A program made the position numbers and the translations under genes. 64,000 bases of DNA from Nitrosomonas nitrosa. Its GTDB lineage: Bacteria; Pseudomonadota; Gammaproteobacteria; Burkholderiales; Nitrosomonadaceae. The notes below the pieces were generated by a model. The model did no database searches. It was given only the letters and a program-made list of their open reading frames with translations, and had not been told where the DNA came from. Position 1 is the first letter of the stretch. Each line of letters begins with the position of its first letter. The DNA is taken from contig NZ_QAOO01000015.1 of NCBI RefSeq assembly GCF_003051105.1, forward strand, positions 1-64,000, written 5' to 3'. This document shows, in pieces, positions 17,938-28,113 of the stretch.

Positions 17938-20709
17938 TTAACGGATCGGGTTGCGTTGACTATCCGTCAGTCCTGCACCCCATTCTCCTGAGAGATTTTG
18001 CACCCAGCCGTTATAAACATTGGGAAGTGCAACAATTCCCTGACCACCATAGCCAGCAAGGCTACTTACTGTGTCATCATTTGCGACACCCGCATCCGCG
18101 ACCATAGAGATCGAGCCGACAATATCGGCATCCGACAAATCGCCATCACCATTAGGATCAACATCGACAACAATGACTCTATTGGAGAATTTGCTGGTTA
18201 CATAAGCATAGTAACCCCCATCTTTTTTAGCGCCAAAGTTTGCACCATGACAACCTGGATCACATGGCAGCATTTTTACGATAGTATCGGTTGCAGTATC
18301 GACGATTACGATTTGTCCGCCTGTAGCTGCGATCACGACGGCTTTACCATCGGGCGAGACCGGTGTTTGGATGGGCAACACGCCAACCGGGCCGGTAATC
18401 TCTCCCGAAATCGGGTTGTAATTTTCGATTAGATTAATGGTCTTCAATAACGTGCCGTCATTACCATCCAACACGCTTAAACTGTGGTGAAGCAAGTTTG
18501 TAGCATAAATTTTGCTGGAGTCAGGCATCATACCGATCGCAATCGGGTGCGGCCCAGGTGCACCTTCGCCAGTTTGTGTTCTTGCCACAATTTGCCCTGT
18601 TTCAGCATCATAAATACCGGCGTCGCTGGTATTGATGTTGGGGGTGATAATGCGTTTCCCATCTGCTGAAACCCAGTGACCGTGTGGATTGGCAGGCGCC
18701 TGCCCGTGATGCTGAGTTGGCATCATATAGTTGACTTCAGTCGTCCCGGCAGGAATGATGACAACACCATTTTCTCCATTGATCGCAACGGTTGCATCAT
18801 CGTTATGCGGTAGCGTCATCACATGCGAGGGTGTATCACCAACACGCAGGTTTTTGATCAAAGCCCCTGTTTTCTGATCGATTAAAGTCAGTTTGGTATC
18901 GAACCATTGGGTTTGATAGATGACCGAATGATCGCGATTAGGCCACAGATTGTGTGGATTGTTCATGTTGATCTGAGGCAATGCGATTTTACGCTTGAGT
19001 GTCCAAGTGTTCGCGTCCAGAACGGTAATGGTTCCAGGTTTGGTTTTATTGGCCGTTTTCTCGAATTGCGTATTGATCCATACTTCGCCTACACCGGGTA
19101 TGGCAGGATTGGATAAGGGCGGCAATATCATATCGTTGCCATATCTTGAGTCAAGCACAGCGATCAGCGGAACTTTGCCAATATCCACTACCACATCGAC
19201 ATTAGGATAGGCTACTTTCCAAGGGTCGCTAGAGGTGAAATCCTGCCAGTTTTCGGGCGTCGTAGCAACGAAGAACGTCCTCAAGAGACGGGTTGCCAAG
19301 TCACTGCTGGTGGGCAGATTCTTGATGCCGCTTACTAAATTGATCGTATTGCCTAGATCCAATCCGTCCGTTCCAGGGTTGTCAACGATCACCGCGCCAA
19401 ACATATAGGGATGAATCTTGCAGGTAAATACATAGAGCCCCGGAATATGAAGCTCGACAATGCCACCGCCACGATAGGCTTTGGTCTGATCAAATGGAAT
19501 CATAAAATGATCGCCACCCATTGAGTTGTCTTCGGCTTCGCTCGGCCATAAGAGCGTGGTGACCGTATGGACACCTTCTGTATCTGACATGATGAAGTGA
19601 ACGCTACTGCCTGGCGGTACGATTTCCAACGATTGCGTTTTGGTCACGGGTTTCAACAAGTCGCCACGAGTGCTTCTGAACCAGCTGCCAGGCTCGTCGG
19701 ACATAATAAAGGTAACTAGGCCAGGCTTATCGCTAGGGTTACCGAAAATCGCACCACTTGGCGATGCGCCTGCAATGCTGTCACCTGGTAATCCCGATTC
19801 GGCACTTACTACTTGGAGCTTGCCATTCATGCCTGATTCCATATGCGACATTACATGGCAGTGATATTGCCATACCCCTGCACCAACACCTGTGCCGGCT
19901 TTAATCGTAAAGGCATGGCTATCGGCTGGGCTATTCAATATCTTCACATCAATAATATGAGGCGGGGCAGAAGGGTTCTTATCCTCTGTTTCATCCAGCC
20001 AGCGGTGTGCATGCAAGTGGAAGGTATGGGACGGGCCTATTGCTAGCACATGGAAACGCACCAGTTGATTTTCTATCGCACTTAAAGTCGGATTGGTCCA
20101 TAGGGGTTTCTGTGTCCCGTCCGCACTGATCTCGGTTCCCCAGAAAGTGGAGCCCACCATGAACATGACAAATTCTTTGTCGAGTTGAGCGCGGTTAGCG
20201 GAAATAACCGTTCCATCACCATCGACGTAGCTTTGTACTTTACCGTTTAGGTCATCGACTACGACTGCACCAAACAACCCAAGCAGTTGGTTGTCTTTGT
20301 CATGGTAAGGGAAGGTGCCCGTTTTATGCGTATTCAGCCGGTAGTTTTTTGTTTCACCGGGCGCTGCGGCATCGGTATTGCCAATAGAAAGGCCGGGAAC
20401 ATTGAATCCTACTTTGATACCTGGGCCATTCTTATGTGTTTCATTAATGAGTTGAACATTAACGACATCACCCCGTTTCACAAACAAGGTTGGTCCGGGG
20501 ATGGTGATTTCGACAGGATAATTGGCAACAGCACCATCGCTGGTGTGACTGACCATCTTATAGCCAAATTGGCCATTGGGTAGCCGTTCGGCTGACAGGA
20601 TGATGTTATGGGTTGCTGCCAGCGCGATCGAGGTCAGCAGCCAAGCTGTAAAAAACAGAGCTAGGTTCGTAATCGTTTTCATTTTTCTTCCATGAATAGG
20701 TGAATGCAT
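17938..20709 (-). CDS. Exported multicopper oxidase-like protein with amicyanin-like domain and beta-propeller
   Basis: 923 aa from ATG 20709, which has AGAGAGG six bases upstream. Signal peptide ending ALA near residue 30. Domains: two cupredoxin domains of a two-domain multicopper oxidase (about 35-305), a third cupredoxin (about 320-450), then a YVTN-type propeller (about 470-920). Domain 2 keeps its copper ligands: H228, H231 and H233 (HTFHLHAH) and H283-C284-H285 with H289 and M294. Domain 1 has lost its first HxH (GFNVPG in its place) and has YHDKD, with Lys 138 for the second His. The third cupredoxin has an amicyanin-like site: H381, C430, H433, M436. The propeller has a CDPGCH motif (816-821) and an EF-hand-like loop (851-862). 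Upstream gene ends 16 bases away. Cellular role unknown; periplasmic copper redox chemistry is inferred. Confidence 0.88.
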   Translation of the reverse strand: MHSPIHGRKMKTITNLALFFTAWLLTSIALAATHNIILSAERLPNGQFGYKMVSHTSDGAVANYPVEITIPGPTLFVKRGDVVNVQLINETHKNGPGIKVGFNVPGLSIGNTDAAAPGETKNYRLNTHKTGTFPYHDKDNQLLGLFGAVVVDDLNGKVQSYVDGDGTVISANRAQLDKEFVMFMVGSTFWGTEISADGTQKPLWTNPTLSAIENQLVRFHVLAIGPSHTFHLHAHRWLDETEDKNPSAPPHIIDVKILNSPADSHAFTIKAGTGVGAGVWQYHCHVMSHMESGMNGKLQVVSAESGLPGDSIAGASPSGAIFGNPSDKPGLVTFIMSDEPGSWFRSTRGDLLKPVTKTQSLEIVPPGSSVHFIMSDTEGVHTVTTLLWPSEAEDNSMGGDHFMIPFDQTKAYRGGGIVELHIPGLYVFTCKIHPYMFGAVIVDNPGTDGLDLGNTINLVSGIKNLPTSSDLATRLLRTFFVATTPENWQDFTSSDPWKVAYPNVDVVVDIGKVPLIAVLDSRYGNDMILPPLSNPAIPGVGEVWINTQFEKTANKTKPGTITVLDANTWTLKRKIALPQINMNNPHNLWPNRDHSVIYQTQWFDTKLTLIDQKTGALIKNLRVGDTPSHVMTLPHNDDATVAINGENGVVIIPAGTTEVNYMMPTQHHGQAPANPHGHWVSADGKRIITPNINTSDAGIYDAETGQIVARTQTGEGAPGPHPIAIGMMPDSSKIYATNLLHHSLSVLDGNDGTLLKTINLIENYNPISGEITGPVGVLPIQTPVSPDGKAVVIAATGGQIVIVDTATDTIVKMLPCDPGCHGANFGAKKDGGYYAYVTSKFSNRVIVVDVDPNGDGDLSDADIVGSISMVADAGVANDDTVSSLAGYGGQGIVALPNVYNGWVQNLSGEWGAGLTDSQRNPIR

Positions 20710-20725
20710 GCTTTTCCTCTCTTCA

Positions 20726-21742
20726 TTAGTCAGCAACAATGAAGTCGCCTTTCATGCCAAGCAGAGCACTAGAGAACGCGCTATCTTGGTAGCTAGCAGA
20801 GTGGGTAGCCTGAACTGCAAATACATGCTTTTCGAGGGGGCCGAGTACTTTATGGTTGATATTTTTACGTGATCCTGGGTCGGCCCATTTGTAGCTTTTA
20901 AGCTCGAATTGATGAAAATTAGTACCCAAGGCAATCAAATGAAACCTTACATAGCTGTTTCTTTGCGCCGTCAATGTGGGGTTGACCCATAATGGTGTTT
21001 GCTGACCGGTTGCGTTATCGATTTCCATTCCCCAGAAGGCGTCGTCACCAATATAAAGGACATAGTCTTTTTCTATATTGCTGAGAGAGATATTTTGTTC
21101 CGTTCCACTAATTTTTACTCGCTCTTCACCGGATGCAGGATTGACTATCAATGCGCCGAATAGGCCCTTGTCTTCGGCACCATTGTGGCTATTCATATTG
21201 TGATCATGGTAGGGCCAAGTGCCTGCTGTGCCCGACGCCGCTACCCAGCGATAGGTATACGACATGACGGGGGTGGCACTTTCGTCTTTGTAAAGATTGA
21301 TATATTTCAACGTACCATCGCTATCGATATCATAGTGCACGCCATGTACGTGCAGGCTGACATGCTCTTGTTTTGGATTGTCAGGATCGAAAACATGCAT
21401 GAGTTCAATCTCGGCTTCGTCACCTTCTTCAAGGACTATAGTCGGGCCAGGGATCGTTGCCGCGGTGCTATAGCGTGACGTCAAATTAGTTGTATTGCCA
21501 TTTTTGTCTGTGACTTCGTGGTATTCCATACGATAAGCATAAAGTCCTCCTTCAAGCTCATCCGCATGCATCACGATACGATGAAGATTGCCGGCAACTG
21601 CCGCGCTTCCAAAAAATAGCAAAAAAACAGCAATCGGTACTATCGACCAGACGCTTAATGTAGTACGCCGATAAGCCGTTGGATCGTTACCGGGCGAGTG
21701 GACACTGCCCGCAGGAAACTCAGAACTGAGTTTTCTCCTCAT
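20726..21742 (-). CDS. Exported two-domain multicopper oxidase-like protein lacking type 1 copper site
   Basis: 338 aa from ATG 21742; AAGGAGG lies nine bases before it but directly abuts the ATG at 21751, so 21742 is chosen. Long N-region with YRRTTLSVW (possibly Tat-like), a hydrophobic segment and cleavage near AVAG. Domain 1 keeps both trinuclear-site pairs: H131-V-H133 (LHVHGVH) and H179-D-H181 (WPYHDHN). Domain 2 has lost them: HxHxH is replaced by QFELK after H277, and the HCHxxxH motif is absent (SAFSSALLGM). It therefore cannot form a complete oxidase alone. The ligands it keeps are those missing from the protein encoded 16 bases downstream, so the two probably assemble together. Confidence 0.88.
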   Translation of the reverse strand: MRRKLSSEFPAGSVHSPGNDPTAYRRTTLSVWSIVPIAVFLLFFGSAAVAGNLHRIVMHADELEGGLYAYRMEYHEVTDKNGNTTNLTSRYSTAATIPGPTIVLEEGDEAEIELMHVFDPDNPKQEHVSLHVHGVHYDIDSDGTLKYINLYKDESATPVMSYTYRWVAASGTAGTWPYHDHNMNSHNGAEDKGLFGALIVNPASGEERVKISGTEQNISLSNIEKDYVLYIGDDAFWGMEIDNATGQQTPLWVNPTLTAQRNSYVRFHLIALGTNFHQFELKSYKWADPGSRKNINHKVLGPLEKHVFAVQATHSASYQDSAFSSALLGMKGDFIVAD

Positions 21743-22079
21743 TTTTGTCATCCTCCTTGTGATGGTTGTTATTTAAAGTGCAGTACAACTAATTAATCGG
21801 GCTAAAAAAATAGCAGTTACCGGCTTGCAGATGGCATACACATTTCATGAGATACCTATCAGTTACTCTATTTGTTGCTTAAGTCAATTAACTGATAATT
21901 GGTTAAGCAAATATCGTGCCATATAGTGAATATCTCTTTGCAGCAAAGGGATAACAGGCTGTTTCCGATTATTTATTTTGTATGGATGACGAGTGAAAGC
22001 TGTATGTAAAGAAAATCGACAATTTTTAAGGGCTGAATTTGCTTTTTATGCAGGAATCTTGAGGATGATTGAATGGAGA

Positions 22080-22421: not shown

Positions 22422-23705
22422 TCAGTGCTCATGCGCCGTCTCACTTTTTTTCATTTCTGCAATTAGGTAATAGGCTTTATTCCAAGCAACTTTTGTTTCA
22501 ATGGGTAGCGGTTCTAAAGGATCCACTTCGACCCAGCCTTCATGAGAGATGCCTTTTCTGATTTCTATGGGGCTGAATACCCATACCAGTTCGCCAGCCT
22601 CTTGGTGAGTTTCTGCCATAAAAATATAGGATTTACCTTCCTCAACAATGATGGCATCTTCTGGTAGCGCGTTCACTGACTCATTTCGCGTTTGGATTTT
22701 TCCATTGATATACATACCTGGGATAAGAAAGTATTCCTTCTGGTCGATTTTGGCATGGATATGGACTGCTCTTGGATTCTGCTCAAAATTTTTACCGACA
22801 GAAAAAATGGTTGCCGATAACGTTTTTCCTGGAACGGAAGTTACCGTGAAAAAGACTTTCTGGCCTTCTTTAACTTTGTAGATATCCTTCTCAAACACCA
22901 GTAAGTCGGCGTGTATATGATCATTATTGGTGATACTGAGTATCTCGGTTTGAGGGTCGACAAACTGTCCCGTTTGTATCGATACTTTTTCAATATAGCC
23001 ATCAATAGGGCTGATCAGGGGTACATACTGAAAAATATTGCCCTCCCTGATTCTTTTTGCATCAATACTCAGTTGTTTCAATTGCGCCTCTAAACCTTTT
23101 GTTTCACCTATTATGGTGTGATAATCAGCGCGTGTTTGTTGGTAAACTTTTCCCGAGCTTACTCCTTCGTCATAAAGTCTTTTTTGACGGCCATATTCTT
23201 TCTCCAGGAATTGCATCTGGTTATAAGCTCTGACATAAGCAGTTTGGAGATTAGTTAGATTGGGGTGTGAAAGATAAGCCAGGATCTGCCCTTTTTTTAC
23301 TTTTTCACCCTCTATTACTTTAATTTCGGTGACATTCGCCCCCAAAATAGCGGTGACGGTGGCCCGATGCTGCGGGAATAGTGCCAGTCGGCCATTGGCT
23401 TCTACCATGCCAGAAAGCGTTCGTTTGGGTATCGTATCGACTTTGATACCAAGGTTATTAAACTTGTGCATCGTAAGATGTAACGTATGCTCCTCTGCAC
23501 CATGCGTTGCATGGTCATGCTTTCTTTCTTTATTGGCATGATTCGCAGTATGAGCGTGCATTTTATGGTTATGTTTTTCTATGCTTTGTTTGTCTGCCAG
23601 CTCTTGATGACAGCCGACGAATGAAATTGCTGCGATCAGCAATAAGAAAAATCGGTATTGCATAGATTTAAGCTTTGGCGTTTGCATTTTGTTATTCGTC
23701 AGCAT
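22422..23705 (-). CDS. Efflux RND periplasmic adaptor lipoprotein (CusB/CzcB type)
   Basis: 427 aa. A lipoprotein signal with FVGC near residue 32 is followed by a His-rich stretch (about 43-76, many H in HNHKMHAHTANH and similar), then the adaptor layout: beta-barrel and lipoyl halves (GANVTEIKVIEGEKVKKGQILAYL, LISPIDGYIEKVSIQTGQFV) around a helical hairpin. It should join an RND pump to an outer membrane channel. It overlaps the pump gene by 14 bases; starts at 23687 and 23663 are also in frame. The His-rich segment suggests metal binding. Sequence style is close to Bacteroidetes adaptors (inference). Confidence 0.9.
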   Translation of the reverse strand: MLTNNKMQTPKLKSMQYRFFLLLIAAISFVGCHQELADKQSIEKHNHKMHAHTANHANKERKHDHATHGAEEHTLHLTMHKFNNLGIKVDTIPKRTLSGMVEANGRLALFPQHRATVTAILGANVTEIKVIEGEKVKKGQILAYLSHPNLTNLQTAYVRAYNQMQFLEKEYGRQKRLYDEGVSSGKVYQQTRADYHTIIGETKGLEAQLKQLSIDAKRIREGNIFQYVPLISPIDGYIEKVSIQTGQFVDPQTEILSITNNDHIHADLLVFEKDIYKVKEGQKVFFTVTSVPGKTLSATIFSVGKNFEQNPRAVHIHAKIDQKEYFLIPGMYINGKIQTRNESVNALPEDAIIVEEGKSYIFMAETHQEAGELVWVFSPIEIRKGISHEGWVEVDPLEPLPIETKVAWNKAYYLIAEMKKSETAHEH

Positions 23706-26700
23706 TTTTTAAGAAGTACTCCAATTGGTAGCGGCTATCCAGATAATTGCCAAACGCATTCCAAGAGTCGATTTCAATGCGTATCGCTTCTCTCATGTTT
23801 TGCAAAAAAGAGACATAATCTATAGCGCCTTCCTGATAGGCAAAGATGGCGCCAGTCTGCTGTTCCTTGGCCATAGGAAGTGCCGTATCACGGTAATAGC
23901 GCCATGAATTCAACCATTTGATGTATTGCTCACGGATAGTTTGGTAGGCCGCATTGACCTCTAATCGAGTTTGGTGGAGATTTTGGGTGGCGATTGTACG
24001 TTCGATTTCTGCCGATTGTATCCTTCCCAGTTCCGGGCCGAAGAACAAAGGGATTTGAATTCCGGCCTGAAATTGATGTAAGCCTGAGTAACCCGCTATC
24101 TCCTGAGTGCCATACTGCAAATCAAGTTTGGGTAGAAACTGCGAACGCTTTTCTTTGATAGCGGCTTCTGCCACATTAACCTGCTGCTTGGAAACGGTCA
24201 GAAGAGGATGGTTATCCAATGAGTCCGTAATGAAGTCCAATGGATACGCTAGTTGATCAACAGCAACGTCAGGTACCGCATACAAAGTATCACCCGCAAA
24301 CCATTGATTGAGTCGCTGCAATGCACTCAGATAATCGCGGTAAGCCTGCTCTTTCTGTATCTGCACTTGATTTCCCTGATTGGAAGTAGCCAGGTATTCC
24401 AACTTGGAGGTGGCCTCGACTTCAAGTTTTAATCGGGCTGCCCGCTCGATATCTGAGAAAATCGAACTTAACCTAAGATAGGCCAGATAATTGTTTTTAG
24501 CGGTATAGGCCATCGCCCAGGCTCGGCTTACTTCCCGTTCCACTTCTAGGATGGATAAGTTGAGGGCGTTCGCAGCTAAGGTCACTCGCTCCTTTTGTAA
24601 TTCCAATTTGGGCGCAATTCCGAATAGATCGATTCGACTTTGTTTGATACCTATTCGCATGTAGGTCGCTTCAGAGCCTACCCCTATTTTTTCGCCAGCC
24701 GTAAAAATCGAGGTGCTACCCAGATCCCATGCAGTTTTCTTCAAAGCTTCCTGGTTTTCAATTTCCAATTTGGCTGCTTGTATTCTGGGATAATATGCCA
24801 CAGCCTGTTTCCTGGCTTGTTCTAAAGTAATGGTAGGTAAATCGTCGACTGACTGCGCTTTCGCATGAGGGGGTGCAACGAATAGCATACTTAACAGCCC
24901 ACAAGCTGCCAGTAATACAGGGAGTGTGTTTGTTGCCGCTCGTTGAGCGTTCTTATTGGGGTGAGCCTTGCTCTTGTTGCGCTTTTCTACAATGGCATAA
25001 AGTACCGGCAGCACTATCAGCGTAAACAGCACGGAAGTAAATAAGCCGCCTATGACAACAGTAGACAGGGGGTGCTGTACTTCAGCGCCAGCCGACACGG
25101 ATAATGCCATCGGCAAGAAACCAAAAATATCCGTAGTGTCTGCAAGTAAGATAGGTCTGATTCTTTCTTTGGTTGCGGTCAGAATGCGTTCTTGAATATC
25201 GGATACGCCTTCTGCTTTTAAAGTGTTGAATCGGTCGATGAGCACCAAATCATCTAATACGGCTATGCCGAAAATAACGATAAAGCCGACGCCTGCAGAA
25301 ATGCTGAAAGGCAAATCTCTTAACCAAAGCGCGAATATGCCTCCGATGGCGACCAGGGGAACGCCAATGAAAACGATGATCGTTTGGTTAACCGATTTCA
25401 GAGCGAAAAACAACAAAACGAAAATCAGAAATAAAACAATGGGCACCAAAATAGCCAACCTGGCTTTAGCGCTCTGCAAATTTTCGTATTCTCCGCCATA
25501 GGTCAAATAATAGCCTGGTGGCAGATCGAGTTCGGCATCCAGTTTTTGTCGAATATCTTGGACGACGGATTCCACGTCACGTCCTCGGGTATTCACGCCG
25601 ACATAAGTTCTGCGGGATGCATTATCACGAGATATTTGCATGGGGCCCTGCACATAATCGATATCGGCTAATTCCTTGATTGGAATTTGATTGCCATCAG
25701 GTAATTCAATATAGAGATGACGTAAATCTTCTATGCTTTTTTGGTAAGCTTTGTCAAAGCGGATAACCATTTCAAAACGCTTTTCGCCTTCGAAAATGAC
25801 CCCGGCTACCGCGCCTGCGAAGGCTGCACTGACATATTCATTCAGCTTATCGATATTCAACCCGTACTGAGCAAGCTTTTCGCGGTTGTAACGGACAGTC
25901 ATTTGGGGCAGGCCGACGGTTCTTTCTGGATTCACATCGCCCACCCCTGGAACAGTCTGTATGATCTTGGCCATCTGTTCTGCTTTTTGCGCCAGTACAT
26001 CGAGATTTTCGCCGTATAGCTTCACAGCCACATCTTCACGGACACCGGTTAGCAGTTCGTTGAAGCGCAGCTCAACCGGTTGACTAAATACCAGATTGAC
26101 GCCTGTCAATTCGCTGTCCAGTTTTGCTTCAATTTTTTCTATAAGCGCTTCTTTGGATGTAGCCGAAACCCATTTACTGGTGTTCTTTTCCAGAATGATA
26201 AACATATCCGCGATATCCATCGGCATAGGATCTGTTGGAATATCGGCCACCCCAATCCGGGATAAAACGGTTTTGATTTCGGGGAAACTGCTCAACAAAA
26301 TCTTTTCTATCCGATTAGATACGTCTATGGCTTCATTGAGGCCGCTACCAGGTCTGATCAGTGCTTGCATAGCGATATCGCCTTCATCCAACTGGGGGAT
26401 AAACACTCCCCCCATTCTGGAAAAAATCAAAGCCGCCGCACCTAACAACGAAATGGTTATCAGCATGACAATGACTTTGTGTCGTAATGCACCTATCAGC
26501 AGTGGAAGGTATGCGCGTTGGAAACCATTTACGATCTTTTCACCGCATTTCTCGAGCCATCCTTCGACCCTGCCAAACCCGTGACTTTTTGCTGGCCTTA
26601 AGAACAAGGCTGACATCATTGGAACGTAAGTCAGGCAAAGGATAATGGCGCCCAGCATGGCAAACCCGAAGGTATAAGCCATGGGATGGAACATTTTGCC

Positions 26701-28113
26701 TTCGATTCCAGTAAGCGCCAGAACGGGAATAAACACGATCAAGATGATCATTTGGCCAAAAAAAGCGGTTTTCATCATGGAGCTTCCGGCGCGGTAAGCA
26801 AGTTTATCCATGACGTGTTGATCAATCATGAAATTACCCTTTCGAAGCTGTCTCTGAATTTCAAAAACGGTACGTTCCACAATGATCACTACCCCGTCGA
26901 CAATAATCCCGAAATCGATCGCGCCCAAGCTGATCAGGTTGGCGGATACGTCAAATAGCCGCATCATGATGAACGCAAACAGTAAAGATAAAGGAATGGT
27001 GCTGGCCGTAATGACACCGCCTCTTACGCTACCGAGGAGAATCACCAGCACAAAAATGACAATAAGCGCACCTTCAGTCAGATTCTGGGCGACTGTACTG
27101 GTCGTTCGCTCGATTAACGCGCTTCTATCCAGAAAAGGCTTGATTTCCAGACCTTCTGGTAATGATTTCTGAATCTCAGCGATGCGCTTTTGCACATTCT
27201 GAATCACGGCATTAGAGTTCGCTCCTCTTAACATCAAAATCATGCCGCCTACCGCCTCACGGCCATCCTGAGTAAATGCGCCATAGCGTACTTGATGACC
27301 GAAATGGACCTTTTCCGCTATATCTCCGACCAGAATCGGGATACCCTTTTCATTTTTGATGAAAATATTTTTAATATCATCGAGCGAACGTATCAGGCCA
27401 TCTCCACGGATATAGTTGGCCATATTGTTTTTCTCAATATAGGCACCGCCAGTATTGTTGTTATTTCTCTGGAGTGCCTCAAAAACTTCAGTAATGGAAA
27501 TATTGTTGGCATTAAGTTTTTCGGGGTTAATGGCAATTTCATATTGCTTGATTTTTCCACCAAAAGAGTTGATGCCAACAACCCCTTCAACCAGTGCCAT
27601 TTGCCGTTTTACAATCCAATCTTGGATGGTACGTAGCTCAGTAGGCGAATACGTCTTTTCATAGCCGGGTTTGGGCTGAAGCGTATATTGGTAAATTTCA
27701 CCCAACCCAGTCGTGATGGGTCCCATATGCGGGCTACCGAATTGTTCAGGGATTTGTTGTCTGACCACTTCCAGTTTTTCCTGGACTAATTGGCGTGGTA
27801 AATAGGTGCCCATGCCATCTTCAAAAATGATGGTCACTACCGACAGGCCAAAGCGGGAAATGGAACGTATTTCTATAACGCCGGGTAGGTTTGCCATCGC
27901 CAGTTCCACTGGAAATGTGACAAATTGCTCAATGTCTTCAGTCGCTAGATTTTGTGAAACGGTAATCACCTGCACTTGATTATTGGTGATATCCGGGAGT
28001 GATCCCAGGTTCATGGTGAGCATAGAATAAATTCCTGCACCTACCAGGGCGAGCGTCAGCAGCCCGACAATGAGTTTATTTTTAATCGAAAAAGAAATTA
28101 TGCTATTGATCAT
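23692..28113 (-). CDS. Heavy-metal RND pump (CusA/CzcA) fused to a TolC-type outer membrane channel
   Basis: 1473 aa. Residues 1 to about 1045 are a complete HME-type RND pump: N-terminal membrane helix, the TM4 motif GAIDFGIIVDGVVIIVE, and DKLVLID-type helices in the second half (AVLDDLVLIDRF). After a short basic linker comes a signal-peptide-like segment (LPVLLAACGLLSMLFVAPP, ending AKA, about 1058-1080), then a TolC/CusC-like domain (about 1085-1470; LTLEQA-type start and a repeat of two coiled-coil hairpins). Pumps and channels are normally separate proteins, each about 1040 and 400 aa. The metal is not certain; copper or silver would fit the neighbouring copper genes. Confidence 0.92.
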   Translation of the reverse strand: MINSIISFSIKNKLIVGLLTLALVGAGIYSMLTMNLGSLPDITNNQVQVITVSQNLATEDIEQFVTFPVELAMANLPGVIEIRSISRFGLSVVTIIFEDGMGTYLPRQLVQEKLEVVRQQIPEQFGSPHMGPITTGLGEIYQYTLQPKPGYEKTYSPTELRTIQDWIVKRQMALVEGVVGINSFGGKIKQYEIAINPEKLNANNISITEVFEALQRNNNNTGGAYIEKNNMANYIRGDGLIRSLDDIKNIFIKNEKGIPILVGDIAEKVHFGHQVRYGAFTQDGREAVGGMILMLRGANSNAVIQNVQKRIAEIQKSLPEGLEIKPFLDRSALIERTTSTVAQNLTEGALIVIFVLVILLGSVRGGVITASTIPLSLLFAFIMMRLFDVSANLISLGAIDFGIIVDGVVIIVERTVFEIQRQLRKGNFMIDQHVMDKLAYRAGSSMMKTAFFGQMIILIVFIPVLALTGIEGKMFHPMAYTFGFAMLGAIILCLTYVPMMSALFLRPAKSHGFGRVEGWLEKCGEKIVNGFQRAYLPLLIGALRHKVIVMLITISLLGAAALIFSRMGGVFIPQLDEGDIAMQALIRPGSGLNEAIDVSNRIEKILLSSFPEIKTVLSRIGVADIPTDPMPMDIADMFIILEKNTSKWVSATSKEALIEKIEAKLDSELTGVNLVFSQPVELRFNELLTGVREDVAVKLYGENLDVLAQKAEQMAKIIQTVPGVGDVNPERTVGLPQMTVRYNREKLAQYGLNIDKLNEYVSAAFAGAVAGVIFEGEKRFEMVIRFDKAYQKSIEDLRHLYIELPDGNQIPIKELADIDYVQGPMQISRDNASRRTYVGVNTRGRDVESVVQDIRQKLDAELDLPPGYYLTYGGEYENLQSAKARLAILVPIVLFLIFVLLFFALKSVNQTIIVFIGVPLVAIGGIFALWLRDLPFSISAGVGFIVIFGIAVLDDLVLIDRFNTLKAEGVSDIQERILTATKERIRPILLADTTDIFGFLPMALSVSAGAEVQHPLSTVVIGGLFTSVLFTLIVLPVLYAIVEKRNKSKAHPNKNAQRAATNTLPVLLAACGLLSMLFVAPPHAKAQSVDDLPTITLEQARKQAVAYYPRIQAAKLEIENQEALKKTAWDLGSTSIFTAGEKIGVGSEATYMRIGIKQSRIDLFGIAPKLELQKERVTLAANALNLSILEVEREVSRAWAMAYTAKNNYLAYLRLSSIFSDIERAARLKLEVEATSKLEYLATSNQGNQVQIQKEQAYRDYLSALQRLNQWFAGDTLYAVPDVAVDQLAYPLDFITDSLDNHPLLTVSKQQVNVAEAAIKEKRSQFLPKLDLQYGTQEIAGYSGLHQFQAGIQIPLFFGPELGRIQSAEIERTIATQNLHQTRLEVNAAYQTIREQYIKWLNSWRYYRDTALPMAKEQQTGAIFAYQEGAIDYVSFLQNMREAIRIEIDSWNAFGNYLDSRYQLEYFLKNADE

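Follow-up and report, generated by a model that had tools for sequence, protein, structure and literature searches.

Two adjacent genes with complementary copper-ligand motifs

The window analyzed here, a stretch of 64,000 nucleotides comprising positions 1 to 64,000 of contig NZ_QAOO01000015.1 of Nitrosomonas nitrosa, carries on its minus strand two neighboring genes, called B and A, whose products resemble two-domain multicopper oxidases (2dMCOs) and appear to hold between them the ligands of a single trinuclear copper site. B comes first in the gene order, and the ATG of A is located 16 nucleotides past the stop codon of B. Both open reading frames (ORFs) are found where a first-pass annotation, made without database searches, had placed them. 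The features that bear on the copper site are given below, with counts that refer to aligned sequences (rows) of the ammonia-oxidizer type, defined in the next section.

20726..21751, minus strand: gene B, 341 aa; a two-cupredoxin protein of the two-domain multicopper oxidase kind, with a live half-site in domain 1 and a dead half-site in domain 2
21344..21352, minus strand: H134-x-H136 of B, first domain-1 HxH; type 2 / type 3 copper ligands by homology, His in 62 of 62 rows
21200..21208, minus strand: H182-x-H184 of B, second domain-1 HxH; type 3 ligands by homology, His in 62 of 62 rows
20897..20917, minus strand: FHQFELK of B, the dead domain-2 HxxHxH position; a single relic type 1 His, HxH gone
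20753..20791, minus strand: YQDSAFSSALLGM of B, the dead domain-2 HCHxxxHxxxxM position; Met alone left
17938..20709, minus strand: gene A, 923 aa; two oxidase cupredoxins (domain 1 dead, domain 2 live), a cupredoxin-like third domain and a beta-propeller
20248..20508, minus strand: domain 1 of A (Cu-oxidase_3); ligands gone, with NxP for HxH and YHDKD for YHDHN
20011..20028, minus strand: H228, H231 and H233 of A; type 1 His plus the domain-2 HxH of the trinuclear site, His in 58 of 58 rows
19828..19863, minus strand: H283-C284-H285 ... H289 ... M294 of A; type 3 His pair plus the domain-2 type 1 site, in 58 of 58 rows (which were selected by HCH)

Above the Pfam cut-offs, B contains Cu-oxidase_3 and A contains Cu-oxidase_3 and Cu-oxidase_2. 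When solved structures were searched by sequence, two-domain laccases were the first match for both proteins, and in A the small-laccase match spans residues about 34-310, by sequence and by predicted fold. A hydrophobic stretch at its N-terminus suggests that B is secreted. The predicted models have mean pLDDT (predicted local distance difference test) values of 84.7 for B and 84.8 for A. The B model matches small laccases over 310-323 alignment columns, with template modeling (TM) scores of 0.57-0.62 by query and 0.65-0.76 by target, and the first match of the A model is the archaeal YVTN propeller 1l0q, with small laccases next. From pLDDT values of about 85 and these small-laccase fold matches, domain 2 of B and domain 1 of A are predicted to be still folded in spite of their lost ligands. 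The first-pass annotation had described the oxidase part of A correctly and had overlooked the cupredoxin-like domain and the propeller, which begin at about residue 328.

In two-domain laccases, the trinuclear site is formed between neighboring chains, one contributing domain 1 and the other domain 2. Ligand roles were taken from what is known of these enzymes, with the solved two-domain laccase 9ix9 as the reference for alignment. NFHQFELK of B aligns to FFHTFHVH of 9ix9, showing the loss of the domain-2 HxH, and SYQDSAFSSALLGM of B aligns to MYHCHVQSHSDMGM of the reference. In A, the first domain-1 HxH is lost (GFNVPG aligns to SLHVHG), and at the second domain-1 pair YHDKD is found opposite YHDHN. 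The alignment thus bears out the complementary losses, of the domain-2 half in B and of the domain-1 half in A, that had been read from the window alone. H228, H231, H233, H283, C284, H285, H289 and M294 of A are as that reading gave them. The four domain-1 His of B are also present, but the numbers assigned to them, 131/133/179/181, were counted from the second Met and become 134/136/182/184 in the 341-aa frame. The division into clean halves stands with a qualification: the split is real, but relics persist outside each live half, namely a type 1 His and Met in B and one domain-1 His in A. By homology, A and B would each provide half of the ligands of a single trinuclear site, and the oxidase type 1 site would reside wholly in A.

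Conservation of the split among ammonia oxidizers

A scan of a public genome collection for relatives provided 79 loci, from the best 80 of 99 relatives. Sixty of these belong to the type found in ammonia-oxidizing bacteria (AOB), namely Nitrosomonas, Nitrosospira, Nitrosovibrio and some metagenome-assembled genomes (MAGs) under other labels, and Nitrosomonas isolates, including a N. europaea genome, are among the carriers of the pair. AOB-type and methanotroph-type loci were distinguished by record titles together with the architecture of A. For four MAGs (L073, L074, L077 and L111) the titles, which read Chromatiales, Nitrospirae, Pseudomonadales and Methyloversatilis, disagree with the type of the pair. 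These are likely to be mis-binned contigs or cases of gene transfer, and L074, the sole Nitrospirae-labeled locus, may be a mis-binned contig.

The 62 AOB-type B ORFs, minus that of L063 with its frameshifted end and plus that of the window, gave 62 rows. The 62 AOB-type A ORFs, minus five (the truncated L053, and L063 and L089, each split in two) and plus the window, gave 58. L063 is frameshifted in both A and B and L089 in A, perhaps through assembly errors. The A rows were picked by the pattern HCH...HM...M, so that their domain-2 count is partly a matter of construction; the only A ORFs without the pattern are one half each of the split L063 and L089 genes.

The first-pass annotation had proposed aligning homologues to learn whether the gains and losses go together, and within the AOB type the reciprocal split is without exception. 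In B, all four domain-1 His are present in 62 of 62 rows; none of the four domain-2 His is present in 61 rows, and a single one, evidently by chance, in the other. In A, all four domain-2 His are present in 58 of 58 rows, with no domain-1 His in 27 rows and one in 31. Not one of these 62 B and 58 A rows has the complete set of eight His. As relics, B retains the first type 1 His in 55 of 62 rows and, in 61 of 62, a Met that aligns with the type 1 Met.

The pair also occurs well beyond its source genome. Co-occurrence was followed in 61 genomes, 37 from the genus of the window and 24 from other genera of the order. Within the genus the carriers coincide: the 27 genomes, out of 37, that have B are also those that have long A (in a few of them one of the two genes is incomplete or split), and neither was found in any of the 24 genomes from the other genera. 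The remaining 10 congeners are without B and without long A; some of them possess a separate short A, and one (G015) carries a 118-aa A fragment at a contig end. Judged by match range and frame length, this separate short paralogue, consisting of cupredoxin plus propeller and in some cases partial, is present in 23 of the 37 genomes. No 2dMCO of the B/A family was seen beside it in the seven loci inspected (L202-L208); in L207, the short A has a 330-aa neighbor that resembles a distant multicopper oxidase.

Among 81 B ORFs, 76 have a same-strand A immediately downstream, and the five exceptions are L074 and L100, at contig ends, two archaeal-labeled loci with a free B (L117 and L122), and L123. 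In 59 AOB-type cases, the nearest in-frame ATG of A lies a median of 26 bases past the B stop, with a range of -65 to 89.

Relatives with the whole site on one chain

Seventeen loci are of the methanotroph type (Methylocaldum, Methylomicrobium, Methyloglobulus, Methylocystis, Methylothermaceae and MAGs), and in 17 of 17 the B protein has all eight His. In 16 of the 17, B has beside it an A without the oxidase part; intact frames of this A measure 608-735 aa, two run into contig ends and one is split. L123 has no adjoining A, yet an A is present elsewhere in its genome. Among 151 genomes sampled from the order of G309, B and short A were each found in 21 and occurred together in 20; the B of G309 itself shares 95% identity with its counterpart in Methylomicrobium sp. 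wino1. In a separate set of 151 genomes, sampled from the family of a Nitrosopumilus-labeled genome, 13 had a relative of B and 12 the cupredoxin-propeller, and in 9 of those 13 archaeal relatives a complete 2dMCO is fused to the cupredoxin-propeller. Eight of the fused archaeal forms (L182-L189) are single frames of 1055-1215 aa in which a complete two-domain oxidase is followed by a cupredoxin-like domain and then by a His-rich propeller; in the ninth (L181) the frame is 880 aa long and the first part is encoded separately, in a different frame. No separate B was seen in the fetched loci of the fused form. All eight His are present in 11 of 11 archaeal rows, made up of the 9 fused proteins and the 2 free B proteins of L117 and L122, and the genomes of the latter two gave no match to A at an expect value (E) of 1e-20. 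Finally, in a class-wide sample of 369 genomes, methanotroph B was matched in 19 at E 1e-10, and in only four of these (two of the genus of the window, G309 and G082) was the match better than E 1e-60; the other 15 are distant, with 28-35% identity. The B/A genes are not universal within the groups of ammonia and methane oxidizers that were sampled.

The family thus takes three forms: one chain in archaea, a complete oxidase with a partner in methanotrophs, and a split site in ammonia-oxidizing bacteria. The complete single-chain site of the relatives is probably the ancestral state. According to the first-pass annotation, homologous pairs with a complete member would speak against a divided site. 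Such pairs do exist in the methanotrophs, but their A has no oxidase domains, and for that reason they look ancestral.

Crossed conservation of the domains and the oxidase tree

If the site were shared between domain 1 of B and domain 2 of A, these two domains should have remained closer to the complete forms than their dead counterparts, and a crossed pattern of identity is the predicted outcome. Identities were computed without the ligand columns, and the comparison set contained 28 complete forms (17 methanotroph-type, 9 archaeal fused and 2 archaeal free B). Mean identity to this set was 0.506 for domain 1 and 0.367 for domain 2 of B, and 0.366 for domain 1 and 0.451 for domain 2 of A. The 32 non-ligand columns of domain 1 that are at least 90% conserved in the complete forms are retained at 0.92 by B and at 0.56 by A, and the 30 such columns of domain 2 are retained at 0.81 by A and at 0.56 by B. 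Comparison of the A proteins with one another points the same way, with identities of 0.679 for domain 2 and 0.565 for domain 1, domain 2 being the higher in 95.8% of 1653 pairs.

An oxidase tree was built from 66 of 149 rows, with the ligand columns kept and one distant outgroup. The A, B and methanotroph B sequences fall into three separate groups, each supported at 100/100, and all complete forms group together at 89/91; the root is unreliable and long branches were flagged. Each half was probably lost once, before Nitrosomonas and Nitrosospira separated. Because the root is unreliable with a single distant outgroup, the tree does not date the duplication relative to the archaeal and methanotroph forms.

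The third domain and propeller of A

Downstream of its oxidase part, A contains two further elements.

19375..19728, minus strand: cupredoxin-like third domain of A; putative type 1-like ligand set H381, C430, H433 and M436, from motif and predicted strands
17995..19098, minus strand: C-terminal YVTN/lactonase-like beta-propeller of A; five near-invariant His (586, 629, 676, 678 and 821)

No Pfam model scored above its cut-off in the third domain. C430, H433 and M436 are nonetheless present in 91 of 91 rows and H381 in 90 of 91. The propeller was identified by the sequence match to 1l0q and by predicted fold. Its His residues are located at repeat positions, each of them is present in at least 90 of 91 sequences from all forms, and they may constitute a second metal site or hold a substrate. 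We also considered whether the propeller might be a nitrous oxide reductase of the lactonase type (L-NosZ). Against NF052460 (clade III lactonase-type N2O reductase, cut-off 700 bits), A scored 24.7 and methanotroph A 56, both below the cut-off, and profile comparison of the A propeller with two proteins above the cut-off, made with the His set of the propeller copper site in view, gave only weak, register-shifted matches between repeats. Because the match is at the level of repeats and shifted in register, A was not classed as NosZ-like.

Neighboring genes and other oxidases

Besides A, the commonest neighbor family within the flanks is a gene that, judged from its sequence, resembles a response regulator (30 of 80 loci, i.e. 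the 79 plus the window). All copies are on the strand of B, in L090 upstream of it (L090:6893-7633), and neither the window nor the methanotroph-type loci contain the gene. The window contains, at 22422-28113, a His-rich CusB-like adaptor (HlyD_D23) and a 1473-aa protein that, judged by its sequence, resembles a resistance-nodulation-division (RND) metal pump with a C-terminal part like an outer-membrane factor. These metal-efflux genes were given no weight in considering function because they are not among the 25 neighbor families shown. Elsewhere in the same genome (contig C22, L052:651-8514) a 1159-aa protein combines a multicopper oxidase with a galactose/glyoxal-oxidase-like part, and beside it is a 1036-aa protein that looks tyrosinase-like by sequence.

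Discussion

The reciprocal split, the co-occurrence and adjacency of the genes and their crossed conservation, together with the complete relatives, can be read directly from the genomes, and they strongly support the proposal of the first-pass annotation that two different chains contribute to a single trinuclear copper site. On these comparative grounds, we consider it highly probable that A and B assemble, as obligate partners, into one heteromeric multicopper oxidase of the periplasm, which would have arisen by duplication, fusion and reciprocal loss.

A different interpretation is suggested by the fact that neither chain is by itself a complete oxidase, and by the presence in A of an additional type 1-like domain and of a propeller that can exist without the oxidase part. 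The two proteins might then have separate jobs, B as a copper-binding protein or chaperone acting through its four His and A in electron transfer through its type 1 sites, with the trinuclear site never formed. We regard this as improbable. The domain-2 half of A, with its type 2 and type 3 His and the HCH bridge, would be unneeded for plain electron transfer, yet it is present in 58 of 58 rows. The half in B is equally constant (62 of 62), the conserved surroundings of both halves have been kept, and the genes are retained or lost jointly in the genus. Because 2dMCOs are interface enzymes, mixed rings are conceivable, and B could in principle partner another, complete two-domain oxidase of the same cell, with A as a bystander, or the reverse. 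Some genomes do contain further weak matches to B, but the close B/A homologues in the 61 genomes are all half-sites, and what remains are weak, partial matches, the best of them at E 2.7e-13. The weak match in the genome of the window is the 1159-aa single-chain oxidase mentioned above, which has HxH and HCH motifs of its own, and B and long A occupy the same 27 genomes; this alternative seems to us very unlikely. That both copies are decaying into pseudogenes after duplication is hardly credible: ligands have been lost in both, with frameshifts (L063, L089) or truncation (L053) in a few loci, but most loci have long intact frames, the remaining ligands are invariant, the genes are conserved across genera and the losses fall exactly on opposite halves.

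Several observations weigh against a heteromeric oxidase and temper our confidence in it. The fold matches are approximate, with TM scores by target of 0.65-0.76 for B and 0.62-0.70 for the small-laccase matches of A. Complete free B proteins in two archaeal-labeled loci without A, and a short A in 23 of 37 genomes of the genus, indicate that the parts can live apart. Within B, the signal is weak: identity is 0.646 in domain 1 and 0.611 in domain 2, with domain 1 the higher in 71.3% of pairs. This hardly exceeds the methanotroph B control (0.800 and 0.790, domain 1 higher in 68.3% of 126 pairs), and the archaeal fused control leans toward domain 2 (0.578 and 0.616, domain 1 higher in 38.9% of 36 pairs). 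The crossed signal rests on identity to the complete forms. Lastly, the 60-odd rows are not independent events because the tree points to single losses.

If A and B do form a heteromeric oxidase, a trinuclear O2-reducing site would lie between domain 1 of B and domain 2 of A, as in the homotrimeric two-domain laccases, with B supplying H134, H136, H182 and H184 and A supplying H231, H233, H283 and H285. The entry point for electrons would be the type 1 copper in domain 2 of A (H228, C284, H289 and M294), which may itself be fed from the type 1-like site of the third domain; the Cys-His bridge would carry the electrons on to the shared site for the reduction of O2 to water. Domain 2 of B and domain 1 of A would serve as scaffold and form dead interfaces. 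In a three-chain A/B ring with a fixed direction there would be only one complete interface, whether the composition is A2B or AB2. As to origin, a complete 2dMCO may have been duplicated, one copy remaining free (B) and the other becoming fused to the cupredoxin-propeller partner (A), after which each would have lost the half that the other kept. The distribution of the family points to the chemistry of ammonia and methane oxidizers, and the substrate that we would favor, though weakly, is a small inorganic reductant of the periplasm, for example Cu(I) or a nitrogen-oxide intermediate.

Textbooks present multicopper oxidases as the products of single genes, and it is of interest to compare the pair with known systems. 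The small laccases (SLAC, Ssl1, SgfSL) share its motifs; among solved structures they ranked first by sequence for both proteins, and by predicted fold for B and for the oxidase part of A. Their known members are homotrimers with eight His on every chain, whereas here the eight His are distributed over two genes and A has an extra cupredoxin-like domain and propeller. The two-cupredoxin fold of small laccases is found in A (residues about 34-310) and in B, but all eight His plus the type 1 ligands on one chain are found in neither (0-1 + 4 in A, 4 + 0-1 in B) and only in the pair as a whole. We therefore treat the pair as a variant of the 2dMCOs and not as a strict member, since neither chain alone fits the ligand definition. 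The methanotroph pair has the same gene order and a homologous B and third domain-propeller, and differs in its complete B and in an A without oxidase domains; the archaeal single-chain form has the domain order of A and differs in carrying eight His on one chain. Ceruloplasmin and other six-domain blue oxidases form a six-cupredoxin ring with the trinuclear site at one interface, but from one fused chain. The manganese oxidase MnxEFG is also a heteromeric bacterial multicopper oxidase, but its whole oxidase site is on MnxG, and MnxE and MnxF are not known to be complementary halves. Two other candidates were rejected by score, the copper resistance oxidase PcoA/CopA (TIGR01480, cut-off 479 bits; A 65.3, B 32.6) and the copper nitrite reductase NirK (TIGR02376, cut-off 296 bits; A 41.3, B 16).

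A literature search by title and the start of the abstract, with most subscription papers and all preprints outside its coverage, found no description of a heteromeric or split multicopper oxidase or of this pair in nitrifiers or methanotrophs. The papers cited here describe the SgfSL trimer and its copper sites (PMC10419308); report that two multicopper oxidase genes of N. europaea, which may or may not be the A/B pair, were induced almost equally, with log fold changes of 6.16 and 6.14 (PMC13356812); and, for ammonia-oxidizing archaea, call the role of multicopper oxidases unclear and name them as candidates for the missing hydroxylamine step (PMC7785015, PMC13003922).

More tentatively, and with less than even confidence, we suggest that this may be the first obligate hetero-subunit trinuclear site to have arisen by reciprocal degeneration, and one form of an unrecognized copper enzyme of ammonia and methane oxidizers. 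The propeller His would then form a second metal site that serves the substrate or another half-reaction and links the reduction of O2 with the chemistry of copper or nitrogen oxides. If A and B are indeed halves of one oxidase, they would provide a clean example of duplication and complementary loss turning a homomer into an obligate heteromer, with the before-state alive in relatives, and would bear on the passage of ring oxidases from three active sites to one. They would also represent a copper enzyme that, to judge from our literature searches, is unstudied and that is shared by Nitrosomonas isolates, methanotrophs and some ammonia-oxidizing archaea.

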